This document shows positions 8,702 through 51,300 of a stretch of 64,000 bases of DNA, piece by piece (position 1 is the first letter of the stretch; each line of letters begins with the position of its first letter). Made by a program: the position numbers and the translations under genes. Location: positions 2,170,001-2,234,000 of the forward strand of contig NZ_CP146256.1 in assembly GCF_039134705.1 (NCBI RefSeq), written 5' to 3'. Source of the DNA: Kineothrix sp. IPX-CK (GTDB lineage: Bacteria; Bacillota; Clostridia; Lachnospirales; Lachnospiraceae). The notes below the pieces were generated by a model. The model was not told where the DNA came from, ran no database searches, and saw only the letters and a list, made by a program, of their open reading frames with translations.

Positions 8702-9064
8702 ATGGCAAGTATTTTGATTATAGACGATTCGAGGACATCCCGAAAGATTTTGAAGGAAGTGTTGGAGAGCGCAGGACATAAGGTGGTTGGTGAGGCTGCG
8801 AACGGAGAAGAAGGAGTCGGTTTATATAGAGAATTGAAGCCGGACTTAGTGACCTTGGATATTACCATGCCGGTGATGAACGGTTTGGAGGCGCTTGAAC
8901 ACTTGATCGAGGAGGACAAGAAGGTGAAGGTTATTATGATTACCGCCGCCGGGCAGAAGGAGAAGATGGTCAAGGCAATTAAGGAAGGTGCTGCCGATTT
9001 CATTACCAAGCCTTTCGAGGCGGAACATGTAATCGAAGCGGTAAACCGCTTGTTGGAGCGATGA
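8702..9064 (+). CDS. CheY-like single-domain response regulator
   Basis: 120 residues, only a receiver domain. Seen: IIDDS acidic pair at the first strand, phospho-acceptor Asp in LVTLDITMPVMNG (near residue 54), Thr in MITAAG, and Lys in ITKPF. AGGAGG lies 8 nt before the ATG. It has no output domain, so it must act by protein contact; the adjacent CheX-like protein is the likely partner or phosphatase. The spacing suggests one transcript with that gene. Confidence 0.92.
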   Translation: MASILIIDDSRTSRKILKEVLESAGHKVVGEAANGEEGVGLYRELKPDLVTLDITMPVMNGLEALEHLIEEDKKVKVIMITAAGQKEKMVKAIKEGAADFITKPFEAEHVIEAVNRLLER

Positions 9065-28670: not shown

Positions 28671-28734
28671 CTGCAAATGATATTGTCTATGGAAATTCAA
28701 AAAATGGATGTATTTTTTTTGATACAAAAAATTT

Positions 28735-28763
28735 GGAATAACTTGGACAACATTTCATATATT
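28735..28763 (+). promoter_or_regulatory. Candidate sigma-E promoter of the spoIIIA operon
   Basis: GGAATAA (28735-28741) and CATATATT (28756-28763), 14 nt apart, resemble the mother-cell sigma-E pattern (ATA-type -35, CATACAAT-type -10). spoIIIA is sigma-E dependent in Bacillus. Lies 28 nt before the chosen spoIIIAA start. Confidence 0.45.
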
Positions 28764-28790
28764 GAGATAAGAGGACGGAGGCGAAGGCGC

Positions 28791-29741
28791 GTGGCAAAGG
28801 GAGAAGAAATTCTGCATATATTTCCCGATTATATGAGGGACAAGTGGGGAATCGTTATAAAGCAAGCCGATAATCTGCAGGAAATAAGGCTTAGAATCGG
28901 CAGAGAAGTCATCGTTATTCTTCAAAATGAGGAATGGTATCTATCGGAGGATGGACAGGTCACGAGACAGCAGGAGGGTGCATGCCTCATGTCAGAAAGG
29001 GATATGGAAGCTATATTGAATCACATATGCGAATATTCTGTGTATGCTTTTGCTGATGAAATAAAACAAGGATTTCTTACTATACCCGGAGGGCATAGAA
29101 TCGGACTTGCCGGACAAGTTATATTGCAGGAAAACAATATTATACGAAATATGAAGCATATAAGCTATATGAACATACGTATTTCCCATGAAATCAAAGG
29201 AGCGGCAGATATGCTGCTTCCATATATATACGAAGAGGGAAGACTGCTTAATGCTTTACTCATTTCTCCGCCAGGCTGTGGAAAGACCACACTGCTTCGG
29301 GATATGATAAGGCAGATATCCGACGGGAACCTCTATGGAAAAGGGATGGCGGTGGGGGTAGTGGACGAGCGCTCGGAAATTGCAGGCAGTTATCTTGGAA
29401 GACCTCAAAACGACATTGGGATGAGAACGGATATTTTGGACGCCTGCCCGAAGGTCCTGGGAATGATGATGCTGATCAGATCTATGTCCCCTCAGGCGGT
29501 AGCAGTAGACGAGCTGGGATGTGAGGAGGACATGAAAGCGGTATATCAGGTCATGCAGTGCGGGAGCAAAGTAATAGCTACTATACACGGGGATTCTTTG
29601 GAGGATGTAATGAATAAGAGTTTTTTATTCGATTTAAAGAAAAATAAAAGTTTCGGGCGCTACATATTGCTTGAAAAAGTAGGTGGAAGATGTGGCATAA
29701 AAGCCATTTATAACAGGAGTTTCGAATTATGTTACGGTTGA
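28791..29741 (+). CDS. spoIIIAA: Stage III sporulation protein AA (AAA+/secretion-type ATPase)
   Basis: 316 residues from GTG 28791, which has GGAGG 9 nt upstream and gives the Bacillus length (307); an earlier ATG at 28677 lies upstream of the candidate promoter. Cytoplasmic ATPase of the SpoIIIA-SpoIIQ channel linking mother cell and forespore. Walker A is in LLISPPGCGKTTLLRDM, followed by VGVVDERSEIAG and VDELGCEEDM. First of eight genes; its end overlaps spoIIIAB by 13 nt. Confidence 0.95.
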   Translation: MAKGEEILHIFPDYMRDKWGIVIKQADNLQEIRLRIGREVIVILQNEEWYLSEDGQVTRQQEGACLMSERDMEAILNHICEYSVYAFADEIKQGFLTIPGGHRIGLAGQVILQENNIIRNMKHISYMNIRISHEIKGAADMLLPYIYEEGRLLNALLISPPGCGKTTLLRDMIRQISDGNLYGKGMAVGVVDERSEIAGSYLGRPQNDIGMRTDILDACPKVLGMMMLIRSMSPQAVAVDELGCEEDMKAVYQVMQCGSKVIATIHGDSLEDVMNKSFLFDLKKNKSFGRYILLEKVGGRCGIKAIYNRSFELCYG

Positions 29742-30247
29742 TAGGAATCATATTTTTGGTGGGTGGAAGCTTTGGGCTCGGCCTATCTATGAAAAACCGG
29801 ATGAAAGATAATCTAAATGCATTATATCAGGTACAGCAGATATTCAAGATGCTGCAAAATGAAATTACATACAGCAAGGCACCTTTGCCGGAAGCTTGCC
29901 GGAGAATAGGGAGCAGGATAAAAGAGCCTTACGGAAGAGCTTTTCATGATATATACGAAAAGATGCTATTAAATAGCGGGTGTTCTTTCTCTGAAATATG
30001 GAAGGAATGCATGAAAAAGTGTTTAAAAGGGACGGCACTGTCTGAAGAAGAGAAGCGAGTGTGTCTGGACTTTGCAGACTGTGCCGGATATATGGACGGG
30101 AAGATGCAGGCGGAAGCAATTGAGCAGTATTTACATCGCCTGGAGCTGTCGGTGAAGAAGCTGGAAGAAGATATGATAAATAAAAGCAAGGTAATTATGA
30201 GTTTAAGCGTAATGGGCGGTCTGCTTGTCGCCATTATACTAATATGA
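29729..30247 (+). CDS. spoIIIAB: Stage III sporulation protein AB
   Basis: 172 residues. N-terminal membrane segment (MLRLIGIIFLVGGSFGLGLS), helical cytoplasmic domain and C-terminal membrane segment (MSLSVMGGLLVAIILI). Resembles GspF-like parts of secretion platforms. ILVGG-type start, PLPEACRRIG and LDFADCAGYMDGKMQ fit the family. Overlaps spoIIIAA. Confidence 0.93.
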   Translation: MLRLIGIIFLVGGSFGLGLSMKNRMKDNLNALYQVQQIFKMLQNEITYSKAPLPEACRRIGSRIKEPYGRAFHDIYEKMLLNSGCSFSEIWKECMKKCLKGTALSEEEKRVCLDFADCAGYMDGKMQAEAIEQYLHRLELSVKKLEEDMINKSKVIMSLSVMGGLLVAIILI

Positions 30248-30267
30248 CCGGTACATAAGGGGGAAAT

Positions 30268-30462
30268 ATGGGCGTTAGTCTAATATTTAAAATTGCGGCA
30301 GTAGGAATATTGATAACCATTTTGAGCCAGATATTAAAGCACAGCGGCAGGGAAGAGCATGCCTTTTTGATAAGTCTGGCCGGCTTAATACTCGTTTTGA
30401 CATGGATCGTTCCATACATTTACGATTTGTTTACCATGATTCAAAATCTGTTCGAATTATAG
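30268..30462 (+). CDS. spoIIIAC: Stage III sporulation protein AC
   Basis: 64 residues, usual size. Two membrane segments (IFKIAAVGILITILSQIL and FLISLAGLILVLTWIV) joined by the short KHSGREEHA loop, which is conserved. Membrane component of the feeding-tube channel. Confidence 0.93.
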   Translation: MGVSLIFKIAAVGILITILSQILKHSGREEHAFLISLAGLILVLTWIVPYIYDLFTMIQNLFEL

Positions 30463-30482
30463 TAGAAAGGAATGGTATTTCT

Positions 30483-30869
30483 ATGGATGTGCTAAAGGTA
30501 GGAATGTTAGGGATAGCAGGTGTTATGATTGCTTTGCAATTCAAATCGAACAAGCAGGAATACGGCCTATATATCGGCTTTGCCGTGTGCCTGATTATTT
30601 TTTCCGCGGCGGTCCTGGGGCTTAGCTCATTGCTTAATAGTATGGGAGAACTGAAGCAATATATGAACGCCAATAATACATATTTCCAGATCTTGCTTAA
30701 GGTAATAGGCATCACTTATATTTGTGAGTTTTGTTCAGGAATATGCAAAGATGCAGGATATTCTTCCATAGCCGGGCAGGTGGAAATCTTTGGAAAGCTA
30801 TCGGTACTTATTGCAGGTATGCCGATTCTGCTGGCAATTATTAAAAGTATTCAGGAGATTGCAGGATGA
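30483..30869 (+). CDS. spoIIIAD: Stage III sporulation protein AD
   Basis: 128 residues from ATG 30483, preceded by AGAAAGGA; an upstream in-frame codon at 30402 lies within spoIIIAC. Three to four membrane segments; the conserved ITYICEFCSGICKDAGYSSIAGQVEIFGK motif is complete (30710-30795). Integral part of the SpoIIIA complex. Its end overlaps spoIIIAE by 4 nt. Confidence 0.93.
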   Translation: MDVLKVGMLGIAGVMIALQFKSNKQEYGLYIGFAVCLIIFSAAVLGLSSLLNSMGELKQYMNANNTYFQILLKVIGITYICEFCSGICKDAGYSSIAGQVEIFGKLSVLIAGMPILLAIIKSIQEIAG

Positions 30870-32032
30870 ATAAAAATAGGAAGAGGATAATGAAAAAAAT
30901 ATTGCTCAGCGCAGTGCTCGTGTTAGCTCTTTCTTTTTTCATGGACAGGCCTGTATATGCCGCGGAGGCCGCGGTGGATTTTTCCAATATATGGGGAGAA
31001 TATGGAATGGATGAAATATCTGATAATCTGGACCGGATACTGCCCAATTACGAATTTGACGTACAAGAGGTCTTGTCCAGTATATTGAAGGGGGATATAT
31101 GGAACGCTATCAAACTGCTTTGGGACGGAGTAAAGGGAATGCTCTTTAACGAGCTGGCCGGAATGAGAAACATCTTCGTGTCCATTTTAATTCTGGGCAT
31201 TATTTCAGCACTTTTCTCCAATTTCTCCGATATGTTCAAAAGTCATCAGATAGCGGATATCGGCTTTTACTTTCTCTACTTACTGCTGATGGCGGTGCTA
31301 ATGAAGTCATTTCTGGCTGCGGCTGAAATTGCTTCCGGGGCAGTGGAAAATATTGTGCTGTTCATCAAGATGTTCATTCCCACTTATTTCATGGCAATCG
31401 GAGCGGCTACCGGAGCGGCAACAGCTGCAGTATATTACCAATTTACGTTATTCTTGGTATATGGAGTAGAAAAACTACTGTTATGTATTATGATGCCTCT
31501 TATATACAGCTACGTGCTGCTAGCCTTGATGAATGGAATATGGGCGGAGGAACGGCTTACCCTTATGCTGGAGTTTTTAAAAAAAGGAATTGTGCTGGGG
31601 CTTAAAGTGGCAATGGGAGCAATCACGGGTTTGAGCTTATTTCAATCAATGATAACACCTGTTATAGATTCGCTTAGAGCGACAGCAGTGAAGAAAGCGG
31701 TATCTGCCATACCGGGAATTGGAAATCTTGCGGAGGGAGTAACAGAAATGCTCATAGGTTCTGCCGTACTTATAAAAAACAGCATCGGCATTCTCATGCT
31801 GCTCCTGCTTCTCGCTATTTGCCTTATTCCCTTGGCAAAGCTGTTTATCATTGCCTGCATTATGAAAGGAAGTGCGGCGTTAGTTGGAATTGTAAGCGAT
31901 AAGAGAATTACGGGATGTACGGACAGGGTGGGGGACGGAAGTTTTTTGCTGTTTCGCACGACATTTACATCGGTGGCACTGTTTATCATTACAATAGCGG
32001 TCGTTGCATATACGACGGGTAAGGGGATGTAA
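30866..32032 (+). CDS. spoIIIAE: Stage III sporulation protein AE
   Basis: 388 residues. Signal peptide at the start (MNKNRKRIMKKILLSAVLVL, cleavage near VYAAEA) followed by a short extracytoplasmic region and about eight membrane segments. Family signs: IFVSILILGIISALFSNF and FIPTYFMAIGAATG. The largest membrane protein of the operon, proposed export-gate-like component of the mother cell-forespore channel. Confidence 0.94.
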   Translation: MNKNRKRIMKKILLSAVLVLALSFFMDRPVYAAEAAVDFSNIWGEYGMDEISDNLDRILPNYEFDVQEVLSSILKGDIWNAIKLLWDGVKGMLFNELAGMRNIFVSILILGIISALFSNFSDMFKSHQIADIGFYFLYLLLMAVLMKSFLAAAEIASGAVENIVLFIKMFIPTYFMAIGAATGAATAAVYYQFTLFLVYGVEKLLLCIMMPLIYSYVLLALMNGIWAEERLTLMLEFLKKGIVLGLKVAMGAITGLSLFQSMITPVIDSLRATAVKKAVSAIPGIGNLAEGVTEMLIGSAVLIKNSIGILMLLLLLAICLIPLAKLFIIACIMKGSAALVGIVSDKRITGCTDRVGDGSFLLFRTTFTSVALFIITIAVVAYTTGKGM

Positions 32033-32034
32033 CT

Positions 32035-32703
32035 GTGGGATATTCTTTTTTGGAATTCATGAAACGTATAGGAATTTTTATTATATGTGCACAGAGCATT
32101 CTGCACTTTGCGGCAGAGAAATCCTATGAAAGGTATGTGAAAATTTTGGTCGGTATCATGATATTGGCACAGTTTATTGTTCCTGTAAGAGCATTGCTTT
32201 TAGGGGCAGACAACGGAGAAATATGGTCGGCCATAGAGGAATTTCAAATAGAAATGGATAAGGCGATGGAGGATGCCGAAATCGTATATGAAGAAGAGGA
32301 AGATGGAGAACTTACGCAGGCACTTCAGGAAGAAATCAAAAAGAATCTGGAGGAGATCGCGGAAAATTATGGATATGGGGTAAGAGAGGTCTTTTTATAT
32401 GAAGAGCCGCCTAAACTTAAGGTAAAGATATTTCATGAAAAGAGTGGATATGTAGGAGTTGCTGGTGTAGAAAAAGGCAGTGGCTATGGTATTGATATGG
32501 TAGATGAGGTGAAGATTGACGTGAAAGTTTCAGATTCTCTTTCGGAAGAAACAGAAACATATTCGAATGGAGATAAAAAAGAAGCAGAAGGATCATATAT
32601 GAATGCAGAAGGCGAAGAGGCAGGAGAAATAGCAGAAATGAAAAAAGAATTCTGCAGCCGTTTGGGAACGGATGAATCATACGTGGAAATAATCGTGGAA
32701 TAG
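32035..32703 (+). CDS. spoIIIAF: Stage III sporulation protein AF
   Basis: 222 residues, GTG start with AAGGGGA 7 nt upstream. Two N-terminal membrane segments (FMKRIGIFIICAQSILHF and LVGIMILAQFIVPVRALLL) followed by a soluble domain; KSYERYVKILVGIM is typical. The C-terminal end is acidic. Two nt after spoIIIAE. Confidence 0.9.
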   Translation: MGYSFLEFMKRIGIFIICAQSILHFAAEKSYERYVKILVGIMILAQFIVPVRALLLGADNGEIWSAIEEFQIEMDKAMEDAEIVYEEEEDGELTQALQEEIKKNLEEIAENYGYGVREVFLYEEPPKLKVKIFHEKSGYVGVAGVEKGSGYGIDMVDEVKIDVKVSDSLSEETETYSNGDKKEAEGSYMNAEGEEAGEIAEMKKEFCSRLGTDESYVEIIVE

Positions 32704-32712
32704 GAGGCTCTG

Positions 32713-33384
32713 GTGGAAGGAGAAAATAAAATCGGCATATGGAAAAAAATTAAAGAGGGAAAACGGCCGGGGAAGGATCAGTTCGTTATTTTTATTCTTG
32801 CAGGAATCCTGCTTATTATCATTGCGCTTCCCACCGCCCAGACCTCGGAAAAAAATTCTAAGGACTCAGGAATATGGAGCATGGATTCGGATAAAATGAA
32901 AGTAACGCAGAACGCAGAGTCGGAAGAAAATATTAATAACGAAGAAATATATGCCCCGGCATCCATAAAAGGAGACGCTGAGGCATATGAGCAATATATG
33001 GAGAATAAATTAGAACAGGTAATTTCCTCAATGGAGGGGGCTGGAAAAGCAAAGGTGGCAATAACGGCGGGTACCTCGAAGGAGGCCGTTGTGGAGAAGG
33101 ATATTCCGGAGACGAAGAGTACTACGGCAGAAAACGATGCAGGGGGCGGAAGCAGAAATATAGAAGCATCCGATATTCAGGAAGAAACAGTATATGTGAA
33201 AGAAAGCGACGGAAGCAGCACACCTTATGTAGTGAAAACCTTACAGCCCGAAATAGAAGGTGTAGTGGTCGTAGTTCAGGGAGGTGACAAACCTGAGGTA
33301 AGGAAAAATATTACTGAAGCAATTGTGGCATTATTTGATATAGAGTCACATAAAATTAAAATAATTAAAATGAAATCCGAATAA
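32713..33384 (+). CDS. spoIIIAG: Stage III sporulation protein AG
   Basis: 223 residues, GTG start after TAGGAGG. One membrane segment near residues 22-42 (FVIFILAGILLIIIALPTA), then an extracellular ring-forming domain: YMENKLEQVISSMEGAGKAKVAI and GVVVVVQGGDKPEVRKNITEAIVALFDIESHKI are the conserved RBM-type regions. In Bacillus SpoIIIAG forms a large ring between the two spore membranes. Confidence 0.93.
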   Translation: MEGENKIGIWKKIKEGKRPGKDQFVIFILAGILLIIIALPTAQTSEKNSKDSGIWSMDSDKMKVTQNAESEENINNEEIYAPASIKGDAEAYEQYMENKLEQVISSMEGAGKAKVAITAGTSKEAVVEKDIPETKSTTAENDAGGGSRNIEASDIQEETVYVKESDGSSTPYVVKTLQPEIEGVVVVVQGGDKPEVRKNITEAIVALFDIESHKIKIIKMKSE

Positions 33385-33415
33385 GGAAACCGAATAAAGA
33401 AAAGGGGAGAATCGC

Positions 33416-34159
33416 GTGAAAAATATGCTTAAAAAGAACCAGATTATGATTACTGCACTTGCAATTATGATTGCTGTTGCAGGTTACCTGAATTTTGCAG
33501 GTACGAAGGTTACAGAAGAGGATATAATGACAGTAGAAAGCGACACGGTGGTCAGCGACGATAACGGTTTGAATGCAGATAGCGCTGACTCCGATACGGT
33601 GGATACGGATGTTGCTTCGCTCTTTGATATTTCTGATGAAGATGCGGCTTTGGATTCCGCCTATGGAGATATTGAGAGCCTCGATTCCGATGGGGATGTA
33701 GTTGTTGCTGATTATCTCGATGAAGGAATGGCGGAGAACGTAGATGAAACCACTCCTGCTGATAGTGGAGTGCCGGGTGAAGCTGTATTTACTTCCACCG
33801 CCAGCACGAGCTCGCTTTCCGGTGCTAAGCTGTTAAAGGAACAAACAAGGGCAAAAAATAAAGAAACATTATTGGAAATCATCAACAACGCCAATATTAC
33901 TGAGAGCCAGAAACAGGAAGCCGTTGATAATATGATAGCCCTTACGGATATTGCGGAAAAAGAGACCGCTGCCGAGATTCTTTTGGAAGCAAAAGGCTTT
34001 TCCGATGTAGTAGTGAGCATCAGCGACACCGGCGTGGACGTAGTAGTGAATGCGACAGAGTTGTCAGAGGCGCAGCGCGCTCAGATCGAAGACATCATTA
34101 TCCGCAAAACCGGAGTAGCGCCTGAAACGATTATTATAAGCACGACCGCGGCAGAATAA
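33416..34159 (+). CDS. spoIIIAH: Stage III sporulation protein AH
   Basis: 247 residues, GTG start with AAAGGGGAGA upstream. One N-terminal membrane segment (IMITALAIMIAVAGYLNF), a long acidic Asp/Ser-rich linker (about 35-115) and a C-terminal YscJ/FliF-like domain (EQTRAKNKETLLEIINNANIT ... AEILLEAKGFSDVVVSI). In Bacillus it binds forespore SpoIIQ across the septum. Last gene of the operon. Confidence 0.94.
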   Translation: MKNMLKKNQIMITALAIMIAVAGYLNFAGTKVTEEDIMTVESDTVVSDDNGLNADSADSDTVDTDVASLFDISDEDAALDSAYGDIESLDSDGDVVVADYLDEGMAENVDETTPADSGVPGEAVFTSTASTSSLSGAKLLKEQTRAKNKETLLEIINNANITESQKQEAVDNMIALTDIAEKETAAEILLEAKGFSDVVVSISDTGVDVVVNATELSEAQRAQIEDIIIRKTGVAPETIIISTTAAE

Positions 34160-47749: not shown

Positions 47750-49051
47750 TTGAAGAGCATAAAAGATAAAAAGAGAGACAGAATCGATAATTATAGAATA
47801 TTTCTGTACCTTGCGCTGTTTTGCAGCACGGCCGCACTCATATGCACCTGCTATTTTACCTTATGGAAAATGGTGCCTTCCAATATCAAAATAAAGGCCG
47901 GAGTAGATCAAACGTTGGATTTACAGCTTCCCGCTTCGGGGGATCTGTATAAGGATGCCATAGAGGTGAGCGGGCTTACGGCATCCAATATTCCCAGAGA
48001 CAGTATTCACATAGATTTAGCCAAGCCGGTAACAATTAAAGCCAATGAAATCAATAAATATGTACTGGATTTGAAGCTGTTTGGAATCATCCCGCTTAAG
48101 ACGGTGGATATTCAGGTGATTCAGGATAAGACGTTGATCCCGGCAGGAATACCCATTGGCATTTATGTGAAGACAGAAGGAGTTTTGGTAATCGGCGTAG
48201 GGGAATTCATTGGGGAGGACGGACAGAAGTATTCTCCTTCCCAATATATTTTGCAATCGGGAGACTATATTACGCAGGTCAATGAGGAGAAGATAACGAG
48301 TAAGACAACCTTCGTGGATATAGTAAAGCATTCCGAGGGACAGGAGATGGTTCTTACAGTAAAGAGAGAAGAAGAGATACTCACGTTAAAGGTAAAGCCT
48401 GAGACGAATCAAGCCGGAGATTATAAAATTGGGGTATGGATCAGAGATAACGCGCAGGGGGTAGGAACGATGACCTACTTAAATGAAGGCTCCGGCTTCG
48501 GCGCATTGGGACACGGAATAAACGATGTAGATACGAGCACACTTATGAATCTGGAGGAGGGCAAGCTGTATCAGACTGAAATTGTGGGCATTACGAGAGG
48601 GAGCAACGGTTCTCCCGGAGAATTGACAGGATATATCGAATACGATGATTCTAAGATTATAGGGGAGATAACCGAGAATACATCGGAGGGCATATTCGGC
48701 TACTGCAATGAGCAGATAAAGGCGCAGGTGCCCTTCGGGGAGCTCCCCATCGGCTTGAAACAGGAGATAAAAAAAGGGCCGGCACAAATCATTTGCAGTA
48801 TCGAGGGACAGCCAAAGTATTATGATATAGAAATATTGGAGGTGCATCTGAATAATGACAATATAAACAGAGGTATCGTCCTTCGAATTACGGATCAGGA
48901 ACTGCTTTCTTTAACAGGAGGAATTATACAGGGAATGAGCGGGTCGCCCATTGTGCAGAATGGAAAAATAATCGGAGCGGTAACCCATGTACTTGTTCAG
49001 GACGCGACCAGCGGATACGGCATTTTTATTGAAAATATGCTGCTGCATTAA
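47750..49051 (+). CDS. spoIVB: SpoIVB serine peptidase
   Basis: 433 residues. TTG start: no in-frame ATG or GTG fits, and AAAGGA lies 9 nt upstream. Membrane segment near residues 18-42, a PDZ domain near 125-210 (QSGDYITQVNEEKITSKTTFVDIVK), then the S55 peptidase domain with His in GFGALGHGINDVDT and Ser in IQGMSGSPIVQNGKIIG. In Bacillus forespore SpoIVB is secreted and cuts SpoIVFA to trigger sigma-K processing. Normally followed by spo0A, as is the case here in shortened form. Confidence 0.95.
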   Translation: MKSIKDKKRDRIDNYRIFLYLALFCSTAALICTCYFTLWKMVPSNIKIKAGVDQTLDLQLPASGDLYKDAIEVSGLTASNIPRDSIHIDLAKPVTIKANEINKYVLDLKLFGIIPLKTVDIQVIQDKTLIPAGIPIGIYVKTEGVLVIGVGEFIGEDGQKYSPSQYILQSGDYITQVNEEKITSKTTFVDIVKHSEGQEMVLTVKREEEILTLKVKPETNQAGDYKIGVWIRDNAQGVGTMTYLNEGSGFGALGHGINDVDTSTLMNLEEGKLYQTEIVGITRGSNGSPGELTGYIEYDDSKIIGEITENTSEGIFGYCNEQIKAQVPFGELPIGLKQEIKKGPAQIICSIEGQPKYYDIEILEVHLNNDNINRGIVLRITDQELLSLTGGIIQGMSGSPIVQNGKIIGAVTHVLVQDATSGYGIFIENMLLH

Positions 49052-49110: not shown

Positions 49111-49135
49111 CTATCTTTTGTGCGATGCTTTACTG

Positions 49136-49165
49136 TTGAATCATCAAATAGTGTTCCTTTATAAT
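49136..49165 (+). promoter_or_regulatory. Sigma-A promoter of the shortened spo0A
   Basis: TTGAAT (49136-49141) and TATAAT (49160-49165), spacer 18 nt, 82 nt before the gene. Together with the preceding terminator it shows the gene is an independent unit. Confidence 0.65.
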
Positions 49166-49246
49166 AGACACTAGCAATATTTGGAAATAAATATCATTTG
49201 AATTGGATTTTCAGATATTAGCAAAGAAAAAAGTCGGAGGTTTGAT

Positions 49247-49768
49247 ATGGAGCAACTGAATCTAACAGCAACAAAGGATAATGAAAGGGTATACAAAATA
49301 CTTGGTGACCTGATGAATATGGATAAGGAATTTCAGATTATGATAACGGTACCGTCCGGTCATAAAGACTCCTCCATGGCAGGGCAGGAGACAGTTGTGA
49401 AAAGCATTAATACGGAGAGGGACCTGGAGAAGGATGTTACTGAAATGATTCACGAAATAGGCGTTCCGGCCCATATTAAAGGCTATCAGTATTTAAGGGA
49501 AGCTATCATGATGTCGGTGGAGGACACGGAGATGCTCAATTCCATTACTAAGGTACTTTATCCCTCCATTGCGAAAAAATATCAGACTACTTCCAGCCGC
49601 GTGGAAAGAGCAATCAGACACGCCATTGAAGTAGCATGGAGCAGGGGAAGAATGGAAACCTTGGATGCACTGTTCGGCTATACAATCAATACGGGTAAAG
49701 GAAAACCGACTAATTCGGAGTTCATTGCGCTGATTGCAGATAAAATTCGTTTGCAGTACAAAAACTGA
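49247..49768 (+). CDS. Spo0A-family protein with the receiver domain mostly deleted
   Basis: 173 residues versus about 260-270 for Spo0A. The C-terminal about 110 residues are an intact Spo0A DNA-binding domain: [57 protein letters not shown] and [20 protein letters not shown]. The first about 33 residues ([19 protein letters not shown] then [12 protein letters not shown]) align with the first strand, first helix and second strand of a Spo0A receiver, but the acidic pair reads TKDN rather than ADDN, and everything from there to the linker is missing, including the phospho-accepting Asp and conserved Lys. It has its own promoter and CGGAGG ribosome binding site and sits in the conserved spo0A position after spoIVB. 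It may be a phosphorylation-independent DNA-binding protein or a decaying spo0A. Confidence 0.88.
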
Positions 49769-49854: not shown

Positions 49855-51300
49855 ATGAAGAAAATTTTATTTATGGCGTCGGAGGGTGTACCCTTCATTA
49901 AGACCGGCGGTTTGGCTGATGTGGTCGGTTCTTTGCCGAAATGTATAGATAAAGAGTATTTTGACGTCAGAGTCATGATTCCCAAATATAGCTGTATAAC
50001 GGAAGAAATGAAAGAAAAAATGACGTTTAAGACTTACTTTCATATGGATTTTAATTGGAAGAATGAATATGTGGGAATCATGGAGGCGAAGGAGGATGGA
50101 GTAACTTATTATTTCATCGACAATGAAACCATGTTTTCAGGATTTAGGCCATATAGTGACAATGTTTTGGAGGAGGTCACCAAGTTTTCCTTCTTTTCCA
50201 AGGCTGCGTTATCTGCCCTTCCGCTCATCGATTTCAGACCGGATGTGATTCATTGTCATGATTGGCAGACAGGACTCGTTCCGGTATATTTAAAAGAGCG
50301 TTTTCAGGGGAGCGAATTTTTCCGCGGAATAAAGTCCGTAATGACTATTCACAATTTGAAGTTCCAAGGGAAATGGGATGTGAAGACCGTAAAGTCAATT
50401 ACCGGATTGCCGGATTATTTTTTCACGCCGGATAAGCTGGAAGCATATAAGGATGCGAATCTACTAAAGGGAGGTATCGTATATGCGGACGCAATAACTA
50501 CGGTAAGCGATACTTATGCGGAGGAAATTAAGACTCCTTTTTACGGGGAAGGCATGGACGGACTCCTTCGTGCGAAAGAAAAGGACCTGCGGGGAATCGT
50601 AAATGGTATTGATTACGATGATTTCAATCCCGAGACCGATAAATATATTGAACATAATTACAATGCGGTGAATTTCCGAAAGGAAAAAATTAAGAATAAA
50701 CGCGCACTTCAGGCGGAACTCGGTTTGGAGCAGGATGATAAGAAGATGCTGATTGGCATCGTATCCAGACTGACGGACCAGAAGGGTTTTGACCTGATCA
50801 GCTATATGATGGAAGAAATGTGTCAGGATGCGGTTCAAATCGTGATATTAGGAACCGGTGAGGAGCAATATGAAAATATGTTCCGTCATTTTGACTGGAA
50901 ATATAACAATAAGGTTTCTGCCAATATCTTTTACTCCGAGGCGCTGTCCCATAAGATTTATGCGGCGTGTGACGCTTTTCTCATGCCGTCCTTGTTCGAG
51001 CCCTGCGGACTCAGCCAGCTCATGGCGCTTCGCTACGGAACGGTACCGATTGTAAGGGAGACCGGCGGATTGAAGGATACAGTAGAACCTTATAACGAAT
51101 ACGAGAGCGAAGGAACCGGATTTTCCTTTTCCAACTATAATGCCCATGAGATGCTGGCGACGATTCGCTATGCGGAGCGTATTTATTACGATAGGAAACG
51201 TGAGTGGAATAAGATTATCGACAGAGGAATGGCGGCAGACTTTTCTTGGCACGTATCTGCGAAAAAATATCAGGAAATGTATGATTGGCTGATAGGATAG
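49855..51300 (+). CDS. glgA: Glycogen synthase (ADP-glucose type)
   Basis: 481 residues. GT5 glycosyltransferase extending alpha-1,4-glucan from ADP-glucose. FIKTGGLADVVGSLPK is the ADP-glucose-binding KTGGL motif; SLFEPCGLSQLMALRYGTVPIVRETGGL contains the catalytic-domain E-x7-E region. No glgB/C/D/P neighbours are in the window. Isolated glgA following spo0A is seen in related genomes. Confidence 0.96.
   Translation: MKKILFMASEGVPFIKTGGLADVVGSLPKCIDKEYFDVRVMIPKYSCITEEMKEKMTFKTYFHMDFNWKNEYVGIMEAKEDGVTYYFIDNETMFSGFRPYSDNVLEEVTKFSFFSKAALSALPLIDFRPDVIHCHDWQTGLVPVYLKERFQGSEFFRGIKSVMTIHNLKFQGKWDVKTVKSITGLPDYFFTPDKLEAYKDANLLKGGIVYADAITTVSDTYAEEIKTPFYGEGMDGLLRAKEKDLRGIVNGIDYDDFNPETDKYIEHNYNAVNFRKEKIKNKRALQAELGLEQDDKKMLIGIVSRLTDQKGFDLISYMMEEMCQDAVQIVILGTGEEQYENMFRHFDWKYNNKVSANIFYSEALSHKIYAACDAFLMPSLFEPCGLSQLMALRYGTVPIVRETGGLKDTVEPYNEYESEGTGFSFSNYNAHEMLATIRYAERIYYDRKREWNKIIDRGMAADFSWHVSAKKYQEMYDWLIG

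Follow-up and report, generated by a model that had tools for sequence, protein, structure and literature searches.

Spore-forming bacteria have Spo0A as their master switch, which is commonly described as gated by phosphorylation. In Bacillus subtilis, sad67 and receiverless constructs show that a deletion within the receiver gives Spo0A activity independent of phosphorylation; these constitutive variants were made in the laboratory, whereas the form described here is natural, common to several genera and maintained by selection. Phage genomes carry homologues that consist of the DNA-binding domain alone, and the authors who described them suggest that they are free of normal host signals (Schwartz et al. 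2023, mBio, PMC10294663). Presence of Spo0A has been used to predict spore-forming gut bacteria (PMC8340488, PMC11536998), and according to a third study certain gut Lachnospiraceae whose sets of sporulation genes are rich 'had lost spo0A' (PMC11170972).

Phages were already known to carry receiverless Spo0A; here it is the cell's own gene that has this form. Shared with the truncated phage proteins is a DNA-binding domain without a receiver, but those are phage genes, whereas the gene described here occupies the chromosomal spo0A locus, as the only main copy, and is fixed over a clade. It is under selection and is the only main Spo0A of the genome that carries it (G000, a single contig of 4.72 Mb). 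In the literature searched, with most subscription journals lying outside it, we found neither a receiverless Spo0A described as the main copy on a chromosome nor a sporulation assay of a strain known to have this gene.

The receiverless gene and its locus

Encoded at positions 49247–49768 of the window (the whole 64,000-nucleotide stretch of Kineothrix sp. IPX-CK DNA analysed; all coordinates of this locus are on the + strand) is a 173-residue protein, its gene running from an ATG start codon to the stop. The only Pfam match is Spo0A_C, at residues 64–167, covering 104 of 104 profile positions at 159 bits, which bears out the intact Spo0A DNA-binding domain (codons 58–173, 49418–49765) read in this gene by the initial annotation. 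No receiver domain, the part expected of a two-component response regulator, is found by Pfam in this protein. The NCBIfam model TIGR02875 is matched at 206 bits, above its curated equivalog cut-off of 200, with the match spanning only profile positions 133–260 of 262. In common with canonical Spo0A (TIGR02875; structures 1fc3 and 1lq1) are the orthologous locus, the DNA-binding-domain family and a score over the NCBIfam cut-off, and an 18-residue stretch of the domain, presumably holding the recognition helix, is identical to 1fc3 and 1lq1. The gene differs from canonical Spo0A in lacking the receiver and its phospho-acceptor, in having a new conserved N-terminal element and in no longer having the canonical 0A box ahead of its promoter; the sequence of the domain that would bind 0A boxes is retained.

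Preceding the DNA-binding domain is what is left of the receiver. In an alignment of 47 unique receiverless and 33 full-length proteins, residues 1–37 (49247–49357) align with the receiver start of the full-length relatives, in agreement with the earlier assignment of about 33 residues to this region, and by position take in its first two strands and first helix. The acidic pocket is altered, as had been seen, reading KD in place of the DD of relatives. Also confirmed by the alignment is the loss of the region with the phosphorylated Asp and the conserved Lys, both of which are absent from the window protein and from the aligned receiverless relatives. The deletion stands, and the first estimate of its size, about 240 nucleotides, was slightly low, as about 90 residues are gone by length. 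At the deletion point lies an unconserved linker (codons 38–57, 49358–49417; pN/pS 0.494 in the genus), which is probably disordered, with pLDDT below 50 at residues 38–55.

Upstream of the gene is spoIVB (47750–49051; TIGR02860, 375.7 bits) and downstream is glgA (49855–51300; recognised by NCBIfam and in relatives), a conserved marker of the spo0A locus. The latter falls within the examined flank in all 23 named receiverless loci, in 23 of 26 further receiverless loci and in 46 of 57 other loci; for spoIVB the counts are 5 of 23, 13 of 26 and 31 of 57. As glgA stands beside receiverless and other spo0A loci alike, this is the orthologous spo0A locus, the place after spoIVB to which the gene had been assigned. 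One of the 26 (L144, in genome G128) has neither neighbour within ~1.3 kb on each side. The position between spoIVB and glgA, with glgA adjoining in relatives, is not that of a phage gene, and a six-frame scan of viral Spo0A loci for the motif ending the receiver remnant (residues 28–37) found no such shared N-terminus (0 of 66). Among the 18 of these 66 N-termini that were read by eye, three (L299, L300 and L301) start with a receiver; they are full-length-type Spo0A relatives on contigs catalogued as viral, of host or phage origin.

The receiverless form is the main copy in all 16 genomes of the genus that were examined, the window's included. Complete spo0A genes at this locus in relatives, which the initial annotation had named among the grounds for refutation, do occur, but outside the genus only. 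When the family was sampled at one genome for each of 120 Lachnospiraceae genera, Spo0A_C was found in 82; the best copy is receiverless in 11 of these, lies within a longer frame in 69 (249–374 residues, the 249-residue frame of G145 being a partial domain match) and is of a small divergent type in two (G085 and G140). Of the 80 loci retained from named GTDB contigs, 23 match over residues 1–172 and code for short proteins, an Acetatifactor sp. being one of the carriers; clade counts contain some redundancy, with L049 and L141 apparently from one genome. A Kineothrix sp. protein (P0065), by which the genus is Kineothrix-like, is one residue off a locus of the genus (L174) in the stretch compared by eye.

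In a tree of the DNA-binding domain (166 rows), the receiverless rows need one change, the exact branch having support 0 and the receiverless set together with one full-length sequence (L093) having support 89. A reduced tree (70 rows) needs two changes, with L093 inside the group and joining L200. In a SpoIVB tree (29 rows), the five receiverless rows, including that of the window, form one side of a branch with 99% SH-aLRT. Judged from these trees, a single origin of receiver loss is likely; the loss, in an orthologous spo0A of a multi-genus Lachnospiraceae clade, is consistent with a single event. That the loss of spo0A stated in PMC11170972 is linked to receiverless genes of this kind is a guess.

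The receiver remnant and the promoter

Closing the remnant is a motif that reads EFQIMITVP at residues 28–36, at 94–100% per position among the 47 unique receiverless proteins, followed by Ser37 at 83%. At 8 of the 10 positions the consensus of the full-length proteins has another residue, for example Gly33 and Ala35 where the receiverless proteins have Ile and Val. Within the genus, pN/pS is 0.042 for residues 1–37 and 0.032 for the DNA-binding domain; clade-wide it is 0.075 for residues 26–37, 0.281 for residues 2–25, whose conservation is moderate at this scale, and 0.081 for the DNA-binding domain (L144, with a one-residue insertion, and L201 left out). L201, a copy with an in-frame TAG in genome G061, was likewise excluded from alignments and promoter counts. 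The receiver remnant is thus a conserved new element, under selection in the genus as strong as that on the DNA-binding domain. A protein search with residues 1–62 matched 1163 clusters, the best 120 of which are all short (103–223 residues), 119 of these 120 having Spo0A_C.

The predicted structure of the 173-residue protein has a mean pLDDT of 74.8. Its DNA-binding domain (block means 84–96, with three blocks at 66–70) matches 1fc3 and 1lq1, and the remnant (blocks at 51–65) is modelled with a helix at residues 12–24 (block means 62–65) and no sheet. Conserved in sequence yet not confidently folded alone, the remnant has the features that suggest a contact surface. Two extra Spo0A_C copies, L270 (G018) and L271 (G123), have N-termini resembling the motif (for example, RKLQIILSYDAP) and look as if the remnant module had been duplicated.

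Placed ahead of the gene are a GGAGG ribosome binding site (49236–49240) and a promoter with a −35 hexamer TTGAAT (49136–49141) and a −10 hexamer TATAAT (49160–49165) separated by 18 nucleotides; frame, promoter and ribosome binding site are intact, as initially described. Both hexamers are present in 16 of 16 genus genomes, the −35 as TTGAA(T/A), and beyond the promoter alignment is lost over much of the upstream sequence. Of the 78 full-length loci, 55 have the canonical 0A box TGTCGAA on either strand within 320 bp upstream, against 3.7 expected after shuffling; the box is present in none of the 16 genus loci (0.3 expected) and in 5 of 32 other receiverless loci (1.4 expected). The set of 78 omits L083, cut by a contig end, and L103, which has a short, degenerate receiver; a simple pattern for the receiver signature matches 76 of the 78, the exceptions being L095 and L110. 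TCGA occurs 17–27 bases before the −35 in 33 of the 62 full-length promoters found, in 0 of 16 genus promoters and in 0 of 32 other receiverless ones. About ten bases on, at −13 to −11, the full-length promoters have a weaker second CGA core (C 50%, G 61%, A 68%), and the tandem pattern is present in 18 of 78 full-length loci (0.8 expected).

Located 8 nucleotides before the −35 of the window gene is a GCGATG box (49122–49127), whose register is fixed in receiverless loci: GCG stands at exactly −14 to −12 in 91–97% of receiverless promoters, a count that may be slightly favoured by our having widened the −35 pattern (TTCCA forms) after seeing receiverless promoters. GCGRTG before TT is found in 15 of 16 genus loci, 21 of 32 other receiverless loci and 7 of 78 full-length loci (0.7, 1.3 and 2.5 expected), and in promoter geometry in 3–5 of the 78 (<0.1 expected); with the pattern in those seven full-length loci, the idea of a box private to the receiverless clade was dropped. 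The box is probably the retained second half of an ancestral tandem site. The box takes the place of the second half of the ancestral site, which makes Spo0A itself the obvious candidate for binding it. With these changes in the box, protein and operator have therefore both changed within the same clade. The exact arrangement of box and promoter occurs once in the window genome, at spo0A, and 18 times over the genus in 15 of the 16 genomes, 15 of them at spo0A and 3 elsewhere.

Proposed control without a receiver, and the second paralogue

We put at about two in three the probability that this gene encodes a working, phosphorylation-independent Spo0A that is controlled through how much of it is present, probably together with a partner that the remnant contacts, and that starts sporulation. 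As the protein has no phosphorylation-gated domain, it would not be switchable by kinases and its DNA-binding domain would be constitutively competent. The quantity made, under the strongly conserved sigma-A type promoter and the altered upstream box, would determine its activity, so that control would have moved from phosphorylation to transcription. The conserved remnant may serve as a protein-contact element, for self-association or for a partner, replacing phosphorylation-driven dimerisation. The receiverless protein would still initiate sporulation, most likely driving it without phosphorylation. A sporulation regulator free of phosphorelay control had been one of two proposals made for this gene, and we infer it from the lack of a full-length copy, fixation in the genus, occurrence in 11 genera, the sporulation genes kept and the strong purifying selection.

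More tentatively, at least 11 Lachnospiraceae genera may have abolished two-component control of sporulation, with a one-component-like Spo0A under the control of its own synthesis and of a newly evolved N-terminal contact element, a changed operator and possibly a paralogue as partner. If so, a clade with spore genes and no phosphorylatable Spo0A would mean that the signalling input can be removed, and what replaces it could be asked directly. These bacteria may decide on spore formation by another route than phosphorylation of Spo0A.

The paralogue consists of the DNA-binding domain only (frames of 127–170 residues, 130–141 bits). Each of the 11 receiverless genera has it, whereas the remaining 71 genera with Spo0A lack it when judged by this criterion. 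It is present in 14 of the 16 genus genomes. In the DNA-binding-domain tree a branch with 100% SH-aLRT separates its 23 rows from the rest. They lie apart from 19 of the 20 other extra Spo0A_C copies tested; the twentieth, L271, is a fragment match whose place in the tree is meaningless. Near the paralogue are a glycosyltransferase-like gene in 9 of 11 genera and a sugar-nucleotide-enzyme-like gene in 7 of 11 (both named by eye), and a promoter pattern was found upstream of it in none of 24 rows. In the window genome the paralogue (L002, L204; G000:C1:3987970-3988281) lies in an apparent polysaccharide gene cluster.

With a paralogue in every receiverless genus and a remnant that is conserved without folding confidently alone, control could instead be divided between proteins, the remnant binding a separate receiver protein or the DNA-binding-domain-only paralogue and signalling in trans. 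We consider this unlikely. The co-occurrence is confounded by shared ancestry, which could by itself produce it, and the paralogue, because it mostly sits in apparent polysaccharide clusters, seems to have a role apart from this. A search for a Spo0A receiver encoded by a separate gene led us to reject a split Spo0A, such a receiver being a candidate as a partner only: the best receiver-only match to the Spo0A profile in the window genome, a stand-alone 120-residue receiver (window 8702–9064) that is CheY-like by form only, scores 84 bits, no better than such matches in genomes with full-length Spo0A.

Divergent small Spo0A_C proteins are common in Lachnospiraceae (L261–L269 and L272–L277; L003 in the window genome, G000:C1:3122983-3123285), and one genome (G103) has nine Spo0A_C hits. 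Like the window protein, they have the DNA-binding domain and no recognised receiver; they differ in forming a separate divergent cluster in the tree (15 of the 20 extra copies) and in standing mostly beside a longer Spo0A.

Sporulation genes and competing readings

All 16 genus genomes have SpoIVA, as do the 11 receiverless genera; across the family sample, 80 of the 82 genera with Spo0A_C have it, against 2 of the 38 that lack Spo0A_C. Every genome tested for SpoIIAA and SpoIIE, 15 receiverless and 13 full-length, has recognisable copies of both, which score below their curated cut-offs in all 15 receiverless genomes and, among the 13 full-length ones, in 10 (SpoIIAA) and 11 (SpoIIE). All 11 receiverless genera retain spoIVA, spoIIAA and spoIIE. 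The window genome has spoIIAA-spoIIAB-sigF and spoIIGA-sigE-sigG in order, as well as a SigK-type factor; SpoIIAB and SigE score over their cut-offs, SpoIIAA and SpoIIGA below, and SigF, SigG and SigK each pass one model and fall below another. Within the window itself the spoIIIA operon is kept (28677–34159, + strand), with AA over its cut-off and AB, AD, AE and AG below theirs. On sporadic sporulation among Lachnospirales, the SpoMAG paper refers to the Kineothrix alysoides description, and it predicts some Acetatifactor MAGs to be non-sporulating (PMC12536801). Three genomes (G085, G066 and G149) have SpoIVA without a recognisable main Spo0A, through assembly gaps or as further unusual cases; G085 carries small divergent Spo0A_C copies only, and the other two none.

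In the 15 receiverless genomes the SpoIIE frames (L244–L246, L248–L258 and L260) are 386–495 residues long and match the profile only from position 410–429, the N-terminal part being missing or unrecognisable; at least two genomes with a longer Spo0A (G023 and G043) give a similar match. The receiverless group shows no enrichment of 0A boxes ahead of spoIIAA or spoIIE, which tells against our main reading and leaves the targets of receiverless Spo0A putative. In the full-length group there is no enrichment upstream of spoIIAA and a weak signal upstream of spoIIE (TGTCGAA in 3 of 13, 0.7–1.1 expected; TGNCGAA in 8 of 13, 3.7 expected). A TTGTCGCA box, one base from the 0A consensus, precedes spoIIE in 5 of 5 genus genomes (G000, G005, G008, G011 and G015; L248, L245, L244, L249 and L246), 0 of 9 other receiverless genomes and 1 of 13 full-length genomes, in a set that leaves out G123 for its short stretch; we treat it as a lead only.

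An alternative reading is that Spo0A has been repurposed to control stationary-phase or surface genes in place of the start of sporulation, with the sporulation genes on their way out. The sporulation proteins below cut-offs and the two changes of the reduced tree weaken our main reading and raise this one, and the loss of the canonical 0A box from the gene's own upstream region points the same way. The shortened SpoIIE match of the clade would fit as well, although some full-length relatives share it, as would the stops in both spo0A and spoIIE of G061. However, SpoIVA, SpoIIAA and SpoIIE persist in all receiverless genomes tested and the sporulation sigma factors in the window genome, and SpoIVA is found in just 2 of 38 genera without Spo0A_C, which makes repurposing improbable in our judgement.

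The other proposal of the initial annotation, that the cell carries a full-length Spo0A elsewhere with which the 173-residue protein competes, is refuted for the window genome. The search of the single contig that had been called for gave three Spo0A_C genes, coding for 173, 137 and 110 residues, all without a receiver, and no full-length Spo0A. Two of the 16 genus genomes (G008 and G010) do carry a divergent full-length-like homologue in addition (73–81 bits to Spo0A_C and 101–105 bits to TIGR02875), that of G008 with a stop, but none is present in the window genome or in the other 13, and competition of this kind is very improbable. Refuted too are an assembly error near the deletion point, since all 16 genus genomes and other assemblies share the same structure, and a decaying pseudogene, with pN/pS at 0.03–0.04 in both conserved parts, even with a single broken copy in G061.

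That copy (L201, G061:C88:31600-37950) has its in-frame TAG at the start of the DNA-binding domain, and a second TAG lies in spoIIE (L256) of the same genome; the stops could reflect early loss of sporulation, sequencing error or something else. Other short Spo0A-type proteins, apparently with different receiver truncations, are L103, L202 (G139) and L203 (G086), and in both G139 and G086 a longer Spo0A copy is present besides the short one.
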